A DNA stretch of 64,000 bases from Thermoflexus hugenholtzii. Lineage in GTDB: Bacteria; Chloroflexota; Anaerolineae; Thermoflexales; Thermoflexaceae. Where the stretch lies: assembly GCF_018771565.1 (NCBI RefSeq), contig NZ_CP076326.1:1054001-1118000 (forward strand), read 5' to 3'. The position numbers were made by a program, and so were the translations under genes. The notes beneath the pieces are model-generated. The model did no database searches, was not told the origin of the DNA, and saw nothing but the letters and a program-made list of their open reading frames with translations. Below are positions 45,194-53,141 of the stretch, piece by piece (position 1 is the first letter of the stretch; each line of letters starts with the position of its first letter).

Positions 45194-48100
45194 CTCTCAG
45201 CTCCTCTGACAGAAATGAGCACCCGCATTGTGTTTCAATCCCACGCTGGTTCGATTGAGGCAAGGGGTTTTCGGTTGAGGTTTCGTGGAGAATTCGTGAA
45301 GTTTCAATCCCACGCTGGTTCGATTGAGGCGGCCCGGCTCGAGCGTTAGGATTTCGTGAGCGTTATCGTTTCAATCCCACGCTGGTTCGATTGAGGCTCG
45401 GGTGGATGCGATGACCAGCAAGGAGAAAGAGAAGGTTTCAATCCCACGCTGGTTCGATTGAGGCCTCAATCAGATCCGCGACTTCCTCGCGGCGGAGATA
45501 GTTTCAATCCCACGCTGGTTCGATTGAGGCCGAGGGCCGCCCCAAGCGGGCGATCTACGTCAGGAGGAGTTTCAATCCCACGCTGGTTCGATTGAGGCAT
45601 GAGATCGAGAAGCCCCAGGCCCTCCGGAAGGTGCGTTTCAATCCCACGCTGGTTCGATTGAGGCTGGGTGGGCCCCAACTGCGCGCATCTCGAGACAGAG
45701 TTTCAATCCCACGCTGGTTCGATTGAGGCCGTTTATGATCGCAGTGATCTATGCGACCCGGTCGCGGTTTCAATCCCACGCTGGTTCGATTGAGGCGTCT
45801 ATCGGAGCATCCCCCCACCACTCCTGGGAGTTGTGTTTCAATCCCACGCTGGTTCGATTGAGGCAAGTATCATCTCCATCGTTTCATTGTGGGTTTCCTG
45901 AGTTTCAATCCCACGCTGGTTCGATTGAGGCGTGTCGTATGGCGATATATCGCACGGCGAAGATCTTCAGTTTCAATCCCACGCTGGTTCGATTGAGGCG
46001 GGGAACCGTTCCTTCCTTGTTATACCCCCAGTTGAGCGTTTCAATCCCACGCTGGTTCGATTGAGGCTCAGCGCCCGTGACGCCGCGGTCGCTTGGGTGA
46101 AGTGCCGTTTCAATCCCACGCTGGTTCGATTGAGGCTGGAACAACAATAGCTTCTCGCATAGCCTTCATCACAGTTTCAATCCCACGCTGGTTCGATTGA
46201 GGCATTTTGTAGTCACCCGGGTATGGGGTCGGCGTTGGCGTGTTTCAATCCCACGCTGGTTCGATTGAGGCGATTACCAGGTCCACAAAGTAGTTACAAG
46301 CTGGGCACGTTTCAATCCCACGCTGGTTCGATTGAGGCCCGAGATGGCCAGTCTGGAAACCGTGAGTGCCGGACTGGGTTTCAATCCCACGCTGGTTCGA
46401 TTGAGGCGGAATTTTTTAACGTTTGGCCGGAGCGCTTTAACGTTGTTTCAATCCCACGCTGGTTCGATTGAGGCTTGTGAAATCTATCACAAGTGGCCAT
46501 ACCTATTGACAAGTTTCAATCCCACGCTGGTTCGATTGAGGCCCATTCCCGCCCGGAACGCTCCTGTGGTGGAGCGTAGTTTCAATCCCACGCTGGTTCG
46601 ATTGAGGCTGCGGCGAATAGCGCAACAATGCGATCAGCGATTTTGGTTTCAATCCCACGCTGGTTCGATTGAGGCCCACGCAGCGCGCGGCGCGGCTGGG
46701 GCTCAAGAAGGCGTTTCAATCCCACGCTGGTTCGATTGAGGCCCAGGACAGGTGCACATTCGCCAGCTGTGGGCAAAAGAGTTTCAATCCCACGCTGGTT
46801 CGATTGAGGCCAGGTGCCGCGGTCGGTCTCCTCCGCGAATGTGATTTCCGGTTTCAATCCCACGCTGGTTCGATTGAGGCCAATGCAGATATGAAAATCG
46901 AAATCGCATTGAACAACCGTTTCAATCCCACGCTGGTTCGATTGAGGCCTCAGATGAACGATGCGTCCCTCCCCTCCCCGCAGGAGTTTCAATCCCACGC
47001 TGGTTCGATTGAGGCCGTCCTCGGCTGCGCCCCCGATCCCGCCCGGCGCCGGGGTTTCAATCCCACGCTGGTTCGATTGAGGCCGAGGACCGGGCGGGGA
47101 CGGGAGAGCACCACAGCCTGCGTTTCAATCCCACGCTGGTTCGATTGAGGCCTGTGTTCCTCAACCCATCTCCGCGCTTCCTCTACGTGGTTTCAATCCC
47201 ACGCTGGTTCGATTGAGGCCCCTCCATTGCCGCTGCGGTGCGAGCGGCACCGAAGCGTTTCAATCCCACGCTGGTTCGATTGAGGCCACTGCGCGATCTC
47301 GCTGATCGCGATCGCCTCCTCCACTGGTTTCAATCCCACGCTGGTTCGATTGAGGCCAGGTTACGGGTCAGGCTACCCTCGGTAGCGCTCGCGCGTTTCA
47401 ATCCCACGCTGGTTCGATTGAGGCCGACCACCAAGACCACGGCCTCCGGCCGCCAGGTCTCCAGTTTCAATCCCACGCTGGTTCGATTGAGGCCCACAGT
47501 GGTATGCAAACGGCCTTCGGCCGTTTGCTTCGTTTCAATCCCACGCTGGTTCGATTGAGGCAAGACCTGAAACATCAAGCTGCTGCAAGACAACATCGGT
47601 TTCAATCCCACGCTGGTTCGATTGAGGCACCTTCCGGAGGAACGTTGAAGCACTACGAGATGCCCAGTTTCAATCCCACGCTGGTTCGATTGAGGCTTTC
47701 TTCAAGTATCTCTTCCGCTGATGTTCTTGTTTCGTTTCAATCCCACGCTGGTTCGATTGAGGCACTTCGAGGTCCCTTGCGACCAGGTCGCGAGGAGAAC
47801 ATCGTTTCAATCCCACGCTGGTTCGATTGAGGCCGGTCATCGAGGCCAAGCGGCGCCTGTATGGGCATGCCCGTTTCAATCCCACGCTGGTTCGATTGAG
47901 GCCAGGGGAGGCCGCTTCGGGATCGCTCAACAGGAATGGTCTCGTTTCAATCCCACGCTGGTTCGATTGAGGCGCAGATCGTGATCCACAACCCCACCAC
48001 CCGCCAGATCCGTTTCAATCCCACGCTGGTTCGATTGAGGCGTGGTGCTGATGCCGGTCGTCGGCGTTAGCCCGATGTTCAGTTTCAATCCCACGCTGGT

Positions 48101-50703
48101 TCGATTGAGGCCTTCGCCATCTCGCGCCTCCCGCGCATAGGATTTTCCGTTTCAATCCCACGCTGGTTCGATTGAGGCGCCGGCGGGGGGCGTGATGCCG
48201 ACGTTTGTGCTGCTGCGTTTCAATCCCACGCTGGTTCGATTGAGGCAGTTGTATGGGTTCCCATAAGTCGCGTTGAAAAGATCAAGTTTCAATCCCACGC
48301 TGGTTCGATTGAGGCCCGGACGGCCACCTGCTCGTTGAGGTTGAGGCTTCTTGGTTTCAATCCCACGCTGGTTCGATTGAGGCTCGGTGGACGGCCGGGA
48401 GCCGGCCCCAAAACCTGTGCGGTTTCAATCCCACGCTGGTTCGATTGAGGCTTGTCTCATCGTAGCCAAGATCCTTTAGCAGCTCGAGTTTCAATCCCAC
48501 GCTGGTTCGATTGAGGCGAGACGGGTTCCCAGCCGGAACAGGAATCCGAGCAGATGTTTCAATCCCACGCTGGTTCGATTGAGGCGAGCTATCTCGGATC
48601 GCCATGATCGACAGGTTGTTCTCGTTTCAATCCCACGCTGGTTCGATTGAGGCACGGAACACCTGGACGTTTCGGGAGGCTTGCAGAGTTGTTTCAATCC
48701 CACGCTGGTTCGATTGAGGCCAACGTGACGCACGTCCCCCGGGGGTTGATGCGAACCGTTTCAATCCCACACTGGTTCGATTGAGGCGGGACAAGATCGC
48801 GGAGTTGGCCGGATCCGTGATCCAGTTTCAATCCCACGCTGGTTCGATTGAGGCGCTGATGCAGATCCCTGATGTGGGATCCATCATCGGTTTCAATCCC
48901 ACGCTGGTTCGATTGAGGCTGGCGGCTGGTTGTCAAGACGGACCAGGATGAGATCGGTTTCAATCCCACGCTGGTTCGATTGAGGCGAGTCATCTTGCTT
49001 GCGGAGCGCACCTGGAACAGGTTGTGTTTCAATCCCACGCTGGTTCGATTGAGGCGCCCAATACAGCTGCTCCCCGAAGAAGCTCTGCTCCCGTTTCAAT
49101 CCCACGCTGGTTCGATTGAGGCGATACGCGCGGCTGTGGATCGAGAACCCGTTCCGCGGTTTCAATCCCACGCTGGTTCGATTGAGGCGTTCCCGTCGCG
49201 ATCCTGGCGGGGATCGCCATCTACGTTTCAATCCCACGCTGGTTCGATTGAGGCCGATGCGCTCCGACTGCGGAAGGCGGGCATTGAATTCGGTTTCAAT
49301 CCCACGCTGGTTCGATTGAGGCCCTTCGCGTTCTCGTTCGTCAGCACCAGCATTTCGTCGTTTCAATCCCACGCTGGTTCGATTGAGGCCCGTATCCCGC
49401 TGGCGCCCCAATCGGTATTACAAACGTTTCAATCCCACGCTGGTTCGATTGAGGCAGGAGATCGCGGTGTGATCACGAAAGCAACGCGTCCGGTTTCAAT
49501 CCCACGCTGGTTCGATTGAGGCCACGCCGCATGGGTATGTGGCGGTGGATATCAGCACAGTTTCAATCCCACGCTGGTTCGATTGAGGCCGCGGATGCAG
49601 CGCCCGGGAGTATGAAGTCCACATACGTTTCAATCCCACGCTGGTTCGATTGAGGCATACTTCCCTCCTTGTTTCCTTGTTTTCCCGCCAGCCGTTTCAA
49701 TCCCACGCTGGTTCGATTGAGGCCGGGACCTTCCGCGCCGTCCGCCTGGAGGGGGAGGAGGTTTCAATCCCACGCTGGTTCGATTGAGGCTGCAACACGT
49801 ATGGACGCCACAGGTGACGGAGATCGGTTTCAATCCCACGCTGGTTCGATTGAGGCCGTGTATTGCTTCGTGTGCGGCAAGCCGTTCAAGCGCGTTTCAA
49901 TCCCACGCTGGTTCGATTGAGGCCGGGCGTCCCCCGCAGCCTCCTCCACTCGCGCCACATCGGTTTCAATCCCACGCTGGTTCGATTGAGGCCCTGCCAA
50001 GCCCGAGAGCACCGGTCCCAGAACCGCCGTTTCAATCCCACGCTGGTTCGATTGAGGCCAAGGGCTATAAACTTGTCGAGGTCGAGGCCGCGTGGTTTCA
50101 ATCCCACGCTGGTTCGATTGAGGCCATGCTCCATCATCGTTTGCCTCCTCTATCGGATGGAGTTTCAATCCCACGCTGGTTCGATTGAGGCCCACGGACT
50201 TGACGGCCCCCACCTGCGTCGAGTGCGCGGTTTCAATCCCACGCTGGTTCGATTGAGGCCGCCTCCCTCAGCGCCCGCGAAGCTCTTTGAGAAGCTGGTT
50301 TCAATCCCACGCTGGTTCGATTGAGGCCACCTCCTCCCGGGCCTGGCCCAATCCCTTGCGCAGCCGTTTCAATCCCACGCTGGTTCGATTGAGGCCGCTC
50401 ATTGGGCTCCCAAATTGCTCATTAGACCCCCATGTTTCAATCCCACGCTGGTTCGATTGAGGCCCCTGGGTTCCGGTTCCGCTGGTGCACGGATCGGCTC
50501 AGTTTCAATCCCACGCTGGTTCGATTGAGGCCTGGGGACGCCGTGCTCGACCAGGGCCGGGTCAACCTGTTTCAATCCCACGCTGGTTCGATTGAGGCCA
50601 CCAGGAGAACAACCCAAACCAGCGAAGCCCATTCGGGTTTCAATCCCACGCTGGTTCGATTGAGGCGTCCCCCGTCCCCGCGCTGCCGCACCGCCACGCT
50701 GCC

Positions 50704-51111
50704 GTTTCAATCCCACGCTGGTTCGATTGAGGCCTTGAGCTCTTCAACGAGCCCTCCACGCTCCCGGACGCCCGTTTCAATCCCACGCTGGTTCGATTGA
50801 GGCCTGGTCTTCGAGGGGCCGATCCGCCTGCGGGATCTCCGGTTTCAATCCCACGCTGGTTCGATTGAGGCCTCTGGCCGGGATGCGGCTCCCACTCCAA
50901 GAAGGCCGTTTCAATCCCACGCTGGTTCGATTGAGGCCTTGAGCTCTTCAACGAGCCCTCCACGCTCCCGGACGCCCGTTTCAATCCCACGCTGGTTCGA
51001 TTGAGGCCTGGTCTTCGAGGGGCCGATCCGCCTGCGGGATCTCCGGTTTCAATCCCACGCTGGTTCGATTGAGGCCTCTGGCCGGGATGCGGCTCCCACT
51101 CCAAGAAGGCC
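50704..51111 (-). repeat. 204-bp tandem duplication of three spacer-repeat units in the array
   Basis: The block 50704-50907 (three repeats, three spacers) is repeated exactly at 50908-51111. The three spacers start CTTGAGCTCTTCAACGAGCC, CTGGTCTTCGAGGGGCCGAT and CTCTGGCCGGGATGCGGCTC on the plus strand. Confidence 0.93.
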
Positions 51112-51383
51112 GTTTCAATCCCACGCTGGTTCGATTGAGGCCCTGCTCCCGGAGCCGGCCCGGGCCAGGCCGTCCAGAAGTTTCAATCCCACGCTGGTTC
51201 GATTGAGGCCCCCGGGGCGGGCAATACGTGCGGGGGCGCAAATATCACGTTTCAATCCCACGCTGGTTCGATTGAGGCCCCTTCACGTGCAGGCGGAGGC
51301 CGTCTCGCGGGAGCTGGTTTCAATCCCACGCTGGTTCGATTGAGGCCACCGTCCTGCGCTCGCAGTCCGGTTTTTTCTGCCTC

Positions 51384-51958
51384 ATTTCAATCCCACGCTG
51401 GTTCGATTGAGGCCCCCGTCTTCTTGACGAACATCACGCACCTCCGTAAGCATTTCAATCCCACGCTGGTTCGATTGAGGCCGTAATTGTTTGCGCCGCT
51501 CACCAGCCGCATCCGCACCATTTCAATCCCACGCTGGTTCGATTGAGGCCCGGCATCGCTGCGGGTCGGCATCCATCCGAGATCGCGATTTCAATCCCAC
51601 GCTGGTTCGATTGAGGCCTCGAACATCCCATATGCTCCAGGGATCGGAAAGGTCACATTTCAATCCCACGCTGGTTCGATTGAGGCCGCGCGCCGTCCTG
51701 GGGGTGCACGAGTATGTGCGCTACGATTTCAATCCCACGCTGGTTCGATTGAGGCCGCCGTTTCGGGCGAACTTGCGGATCGTGAAGTAGGAATTTCAAT
51801 CCCACGCTGGTTCGATTGAGGCCTCTGAAGGTGACCGCGAATGTTTCCACCACGTGGGTGAATTTCAATCCCACGCTGGTTCGATTGAGGCCGCGGCAGC
51901 CGAGGGGCTGAGGGTGGCGGCTTATGTGATTTCAATCCCACGCTGGTTCGATTGAGGC
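51384..51958 (-). repeat. Nine leader-proximal repeats with a changed terminal base
   Basis: The last nine repeats on the right begin ATTTCAATC instead of GTTTCAATC on the plus strand. In the transcript this is the final base C to U, giving a predicted handle AUUGAAAU. Confidence 0.93.
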
Positions 51959-51975
51959 CCCTGCGATTTCAGGGG
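51958..51975. promoter_or_regulatory. Inverted repeat at the leader-repeat junction
   Basis: CCCCTG and CAGGGG form a perfect 6-bp inverted repeat with a 6-nt centre that begins on the last base of the first repeat. It may be an anchoring site for spacer integration. Confidence 0.4.
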
Positions 51976-52026
51976 GTGAATGGGGGAAGGGAGAGAGAAC
52001 CCCCTTCGGAAATCCAGTTCGCCTTA

Positions 52027-52055
52027 AATATAGCATCGATCGTGCGGTTTGTCAA
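52027..52055 (-). promoter_or_regulatory. CRISPR array promoter
   Basis: On the minus strand TTGACA (52050-52055), 17 bp, TATATT (52027-52032). Transcription would begin about 60 bp before the first repeat and run into the array. Confidence 0.8.
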
Positions 52056-52090
52056 GGGGTGCGGGCTTCTCCACGGATGTGGGGACGACG

Positions 52091-52269
52091 GGGGTCCGCG
52101 GAAGCCTTTTCCGAAACATGGGATCAGATCCCTATGGGGGGATCTTTTCGGATCGAAAGGGAAGCGGATGGTTGGGGATGGGGGGAGAAGAGAAGGGTTC
52201 GAAGGGATCATTTTATAAGCCTTCCGCGGACCCCTGGTGGCCGGATTTTCCATGGAGGTCCGCGGAAGG
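52091..52269. repeat. Inverted repeat pair plus third copy beside the CRISPR leader
   Basis: GGGGTCCGCGGAAGCC (52091-52106) faces GCCTTCCGCGGACCCC (52219-52234) with one mismatch, enclosing 112 bp. A third direct copy AGGTCCGCGGAAGG is at 52256-52269. The pair may be the ends of a small non-coding element or protein-binding sites. Confidence 0.6.
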
Positions 52270-52300
52270 TTTCTGCGCCCACTGAACGCAAGGTGAGCGC

Positions 52301-53035
52301 TCAGGTTCCTGAACCGGGATGAGGAGAGGATGGAGCGTTGAAGGATAGGCCTCGCTCCCTCAGGCTGATATATCGGCCGCGCCCAATGATCAGGTGATCC
52401 AGCACCCGGATCCCCAGCAGCTGCCCTGCCGCGATGAGATCCCGCGTGAGCGCGATGTCCTCTGGAGAGGGCGTGGGATCCCCCGAGGGATGGTTGTGGG
52501 CCAGGATCAGGGAGACCGCGTTGCGCCGGATGGCCTCCCGAAACACCTCCGCCGGCCGCACGAGGGTGGTGTTCACGTTCCCTACATAGATCGTCGGGAT
52601 CGCCACCACCCGCCCCCGGGTGTCCAGCAAGATGGTCCGCAGGGTTTCCTGCTCCAGGTCCGCCATGTCCGCCAGCAACATATAAGCCTCATGCGCGGAG
52701 CGAACGAAGGGGCGCTCCTCCGGAGCGGCGGCGGCGACGCGCCGGCCCAGCTCCAGGGCGGCCTGGATCTGGGCCGCCTTCGCGAGGCCAACCCCCGGGA
52801 TCCGGGCCAGCTCATGGGCCGGGATCCGCCCCAGCCCGCTCAATCCCTCGCAGTGCTGCAGGATACGATGCGCCAGTTGCAGGGCGTTCTCCCCACGGCG
52901 CCCGGTGCGCAGCAGGATCGCCAGCAGTTCCGCTGCGGACAGCGCGGCCGGACCGTGTTGCAACAGTCGCTCCCGGGGTCGCTCCTCGACCGGGAGATCC
53001 TTGATGGTGAGCCACAGGATGCCGGTCTCTTCCAT
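52301..53035 (-). CDS. radC: RadC-family JAB-domain DNA repair-like protein
   Basis: This 244-residue protein has an N-terminal helix-hairpin-helix domain (ELARIPGVGLAKAAQIQAAL) and a C-terminal JAB/MPN+ metalloprotease-like domain with the metal motif HNHPSGDPTPSPED (His, His, Asp). Its true activity is unknown despite the name. It is next to the CRISPR leader but transcribed in the same leftward direction, so its message could read into the array. ATG 53035 begins after GGGAGGG. Confidence 0.92.
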   Translation of the reverse strand: MEETGILWLTIKDLPVEERPRERLLQHGPAALSAAELLAILLRTGRRGENALQLAHRILQHCEGLSGLGRIPAHELARIPGVGLAKAAQIQAALELGRRVAAAAPEERPFVRSAHEAYMLLADMADLEQETLRTILLDTRGRVVAIPTIYVGNVNTTLVRPAEVFREAIRRNAVSLILAHNHPSGDPTPSPEDIALTRDLIAAGQLLGIRVLDHLIIGRGRYISLRERGLSFNAPSSPHPGSGT

Positions 53036-53141
53036 CCCGGTGTTCCCTCCCCTGTAAACATGATAGCCATGGAACCGGAGGGCACCGGCGATGCGATGCG
53101 GGACGGGGCGTCGCAATGAAGGGCGTCGCAGCCCTATCTCT

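Follow-up and report, generated by a model that had tools for sequence, protein, structure and literature searches.

Nine leader-proximal repeats of a Thermoflexus hugenholtzii CRISPR array very probably inherited a single end-base change by copying

In the window analysed here (64,000 nucleotides of Thermoflexus hugenholtzii, contig NZ_CP076326.1, positions 1,054,001 to 1,118,000), nine consecutive repeats at one end of a CRISPR array differ from the others by the same single base. Did this base change once and then spread by copying, and does it matter to the Cas proteins that use the resulting crRNAs? The array, referred to as A1 (Table 1), shows the regularly placed, near-identical repeats and unique spacers of a CRISPR array, with 28 inner nucleotides invariant in 99 of the 100 repeats. 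On the crRNA (minus) strand the repeat reads GCCTCAATCGAACCAGCGTGGGATTGAAAC, with T as the final base in the nine rightmost units. The original prediction that these nine carry A in place of G at the first plus-strand base proved exact, coordinates included. Within 51384-51958 all nine repeats (9/9) read ATTTCAATCCCACGCTGGTTCGATTGAGGC on the plus strand and GCCTCAATCGAACCAGCGTGGGATTGAAAT on the crRNA strand, whereas the remaining 91 start with G on the plus strand and hence end in C on the crRNA strand. Two crRNA forms, AUUGAAAU and AUUGAAAC, are expected from these repeat variants.

Table 1. Features of the A1 locus (positions in the window)
Feature	Position	Strand	Description
CRISPR array A1	45232-51958	minus	100 repeats, 30 nt each; spacers 35-41 nt; crRNA strand minus; leader at right end
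Tandem duplication	50701-50904 and 50905-51108		exact, 204 nt; three repeat-spacer units; spacers 13-15 identical to spacers 16-18
First older-type (C-ended) repeat counted from the leader	51317-51346	minus	unit 10
Spacer 9	51347-51383		37 nt
T-ended block	51384-51958	minus	nine leader-side repeats with spacers 1-8
T-ended repeats, starts	51384, 51452, 51520, 51588, 51657, 51726, 51793, 51862, 51929		variant base is the first plus-strand base of each
Leader	51959-52280	minus	~97% identical to second-array leader; homologous to other Thermoflexus leaders; repeat-proximal end CTGAAATCGCAGG
Extra G at leader-repeat junction	51959-51959	minus	missing from five other aligned leaders
Sigma-70-type promoter in leader (predicted)	52027-52055	minus	TTGACA-17-TATATT; reads into the array
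RadC-like gene	52301-53116	minus	adjoins the leader; identifies the orthologous T. hugenholtzii JAD2 array together with the next two genes

Under random placement of nine variants in an array of 100 repeats, a block of all nine at the leader end would have a probability of 1/C(100,9), or about 5e-13. An exact search of the whole genome found the T-ended repeat exactly nine times, always within the A1 block, so that of the genome's 371 repeats of this sequence 9 end in T, all of them next to the leader. In the second array of the genome (G000:C1:2179361-2197456), 271 of 271 repeats end in C. The nine spacers of the T-ended block are mutually different, and the block is therefore not a segmental duplication. 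That the changed base was supplied by the spacer of each unit is ruled out by its constancy across the nine repeats.

Whether the block is new or old depends on the position of the leader. The right flank of A1 and the left flank of the 271-repeat second array share ~97% identity, while the opposite flanks of the two arrays differ. It also aligns with other Thermoflexus leaders, all of which end in CCTGAAATCGCAGG beside the repeat, and in the leaders read, the newest repeats open with the same bases that follow GCAGG. Judged by sequence match, the A1 leader holds a near-perfect predicted sigma-70 promoter, giving the arrangement typical of a CRISPR array, with the leader at one end and an inward promoter. 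Leader homology and the inward promoter place the leader on the right, and the T-ended repeats are therefore the newest. A leader on the left, named beforehand as a point against copying, was checked for and is ruled out by the same homology and promoter direction.

The ancestral state can be read from relatives. The A1 repeat sequence is also present in named Thermoflexus records and in genomes of the same genus. In a genome that appears to be that of T. hugenholtzii JAD2, an array lies between the same genes as A1, with deacetylase-like, threonine-synthase-like and RadC-like genes on the leader side and, on the other side, the same three genes. All 68 repeats of this orthologous array (68/68) end in C, which makes T in A1 the derived base. 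The variant thus forms one block touching the leader, and the older base is found elsewhere in A1 and in the ortholog.

In the general model of polarised acquisition, the leader-end repeat is duplicated each time a spacer is taken up, so that its changes pass to all later repeats (PMC4466440). The contiguous leader-side block and the derived T bear out the proposal that the leader-proximal repeat underwent a single heritable change and that at least eight spacers were acquired after it. Very probably, the leader-proximal repeat of A1, taken as a type I-B array, once went from C to T, the new base was copied in each later acquisition, and it was tolerated as a base that is not read. The mechanism is no different from the polarised model, but the A1 block is long, exact and located at the very last base. 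Polymorphism of trailer-end repeats (PMC8047081) resembles it in that variants are confined to one array end; there, however, degeneracy lies at the trailer and is not copied, whereas the A1 block lies at the leader end and is copied. The block had also been expected to date the last spacers; it does mark the newest ones by relative order, but gives no absolute date.

Changes at the same base recur in the genus. An array of Ca. T. tengchongensis (L029) has G there in its 17 leader-side repeats, followed by C in 62. An array fragment of Thermoflexus sp. SKYB22 (L033), whose contig does not reach the leader and which was oriented by the strand of its repeats, has T in 64 repeats and then C in 14. 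As no spacers are common to the A1 block and either of these arrays, the three end-base changes look like independent events. Among 1058 repeats in 11 arrays, changes propagated through at least five units affect position 1 twice, position 30 three times and positions 2-29 never; isolated inner changes are few, all of them at positions 17 and 18. Variants scattered in related arrays would have spoken against copying, but those found there form contiguous blocks. One array, from SKYB3, has a single isolated T at the same base that was not propagated, so the base can also change after acquisition. Two other features of these arrays deserve mention. A 63-repeat fragment of Thermoflexus sp. SKYB22 (L034) has a fixed inner change, GGGATAG for GGGATTG. 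In units 14-25 of the T. tengchongensis array, three spacers occur twice within 12 units, in a different order and with the 3′ ends of two pairs one base apart, a pattern suggesting that the same DNA was captured again and not that the units were duplicated.

Propagated changes restricted to end bases fit a Cas1-Cas2 integrase positioned by the leader and by mid-repeat motifs. In the type II-A system of S. thermophilus, the leader-repeat junction determines the first cut, and an internal repeat motif places the second a fixed distance away (PMC6895254); on that scheme the ruler does not include the end bases. The same paper refers to comparable rulers for types I-B and I-E, and the same rulers may well operate in Thermoflexus. 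The likeness would extend to a junction-set first cut, an inner-motif second cut and a repeat length free to drift at the ends. For S. thermophilus the evidence comes from engineered repeats, in vitro and in vivo, whereas for Thermoflexus we infer such rulers from naturally occurring blocks with repeats of 29, 30 and perhaps 31 bases. The proposed sequence of events would then run as follows. The last base of the A1 leader-proximal repeat would have changed once from C to T, and later acquisitions, at least eight since the change, would have duplicated the T-ended leader repeat with that base included. The integrase would set its leader-side cut by the leader end and its second cut by mid-repeat motifs, leaving the last base outside both, and the effector would read only the CC of a CCN PAM, so that the changed base would lie outside what is read. 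In S. thermophilus an altered last repeat base lowers the efficiency of second-site integration (PMC6895254), and strict neutrality of the A1 end base is therefore not proven.

In the second array (L009-L010) the first repeat base is G in the 27 oldest units, mixed in 15 units and T in the 229 newest, the T era having five isolated exceptions. The units with mixed first bases, 230-244, are one base shorter (36.00 vs 36.97, p 7e-6), i.e. they represent an era of 29-base repeats with the second cut unmoved. On the minus strand of A1, a spacer-end G stands before 36 of 40 repeats in the run from 2 to 41 and before 13 of 13 in the run from 67 to 79, and the base is mixed before repeats 42-66 and 80-100; the same G-before-repeat pattern occurs in 29 leader-side units of the SKYB22 fragment L034. 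The second array has no such block despite a nearly identical leader and the same cas genes, so the cause of the G runs seems to act in cis. The runs represent either 31-base repeats or a spacer-end bias. For 31-base repeats a length difference of +1 is expected, and the differences found were about +0.2 in A1 (37.74 vs 37.54, block means) and +0.45 in SKYB2 (p 0.003); overlaps at spacer 3′ ends are few. Tentatively, the Thermoflexus leader-repeat junction might set, in cis, the first base and the length (29, 30 or 31) of later repeats while the last base drifts freely. If so, blocks in the arrays would record when, across hundreds of acquisitions, the junction changed or integration slipped.

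Such slips bear on the origin of the T itself, since the same block would result from a replication error or from a cut that slipped by one base as spacer 9 entered. In a slip, the spacer-side cut would have fallen one base inside the repeat, giving a 29-nt duplication with a T taken from spacer 9 (which begins GAGGCAGAAAAAACCGG) and copied later. Boundary bases do change far more often than inner ones, and the 29-base era of the second array points to one-base cut shifts at the leader side. However, spacer 9 is 37 nt long, within the local range, spacers of the T-ended block average 38.0 nt as against 38.1 in the nine preceding units, and a search of viral contigs for the spacer-9 protospacer did not find it. 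We consider the slip unlikely, and a simple mutation would be the first step of the copied change.

Would the changed base matter to the effector? Protospacer 5′ flanks deduced from overlapping spacers of the genus have C at -3 in 19 of 23 cases and C at -2 in 20 of 23, with G 11, A 6, T 5 and C 1 at -1. Of the overlapping spacer pairs behind these flanks, some are weak and some not independent; together these overlaps give a 5′-CCN PAM, with the 5′ location at -3 and -2 that is characteristic of type I-B. Exact-pattern scans of viral contigs with five spacer cores gave no match, and comparing the whole A1 array with phage records in a distant-similarity search gave none either. By gene content, the cas set at G000:C1:1266636-1280367 (cas3, cas5, cas7, cas4, cas1b and cas2, with Cas7 Cst2/DevR and Cas1b above the cut-off) is type I-B. 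In the stretch read, no array adjoins this locus. It likely serves A1 and the second array, because the array of the type III-A locus uses a different repeat and no other array lies near the I-B set. The type III-A set, at ~781-791 kb, has its own Cas1 and Cas2, and beside it lies a separate array of 15 repeats of 36-37 nt (L041:14810-15957; G000:C1:779810-780957).

With a CCN PAM the changed repeat base lies opposite the N, which is free. Whichever base ends it, the repeat presents AA at -3/-2, and a switch from C to T should therefore leave self-discrimination unaffected. The predicted repeat fold is the same for a C, T or G ending, with the last base unpaired. Acquisition continued after each end-base change, at least 8 times in A1, at least 16 in the T. 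tengchongensis array (G) and at least 63 in L033 (T). The suggestion that the change affects Cas recognition is not supported by these results. An effect on type III self/non-self pairing finds no more favour, given the separate repeat of the type III-A locus: when a repeat changes, the crRNA and the array DNA encoding it change alike and remain complementary, and if type III complexes took A1 crRNAs, array antisense would still pair fully with the changed handle. Selection of the base for altered recognition by Cas6, Cascade or type III complexes might be suspected from its presence in all nine newest repeats and from other arrays of the genus having changed the same base, to T or G. Against this, in addition to the free facing base and the unchanged fold, the second array with its near-identical leader retains C throughout and the relatives changed to differing bases, G and T; we regard selection as highly improbable. 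The changed end base is probably nearly neutral and without function, weak effects being possible. Import of the T-ended block from another array by recombination or conversion is the least credible explanation, for although arrays do rearrange, as in the exact 204-nt duplication at 50701-51108, the absence of T-ended repeats elsewhere in the genome rules out a donor array there, and spacers 1-9 never occur whole in the other arrays read.

Copying of the leader-end repeat is a known, ordinary process, of which A1 is an unusually clear fossil record. Less ordinary are the genus-wide end-base blocks around an invariant repeat core. For A1 itself, the T-ended block is a built-in order mark for the newest spacers. 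It also cautions that one-letter handle differences among repeats need not imply function. More broadly, Thermoflexus arrays amount to a natural experiment on integrase cut sites, in which end bases drift and inner ones stay fixed, a pattern that fits the rulers known from engineered repeats.
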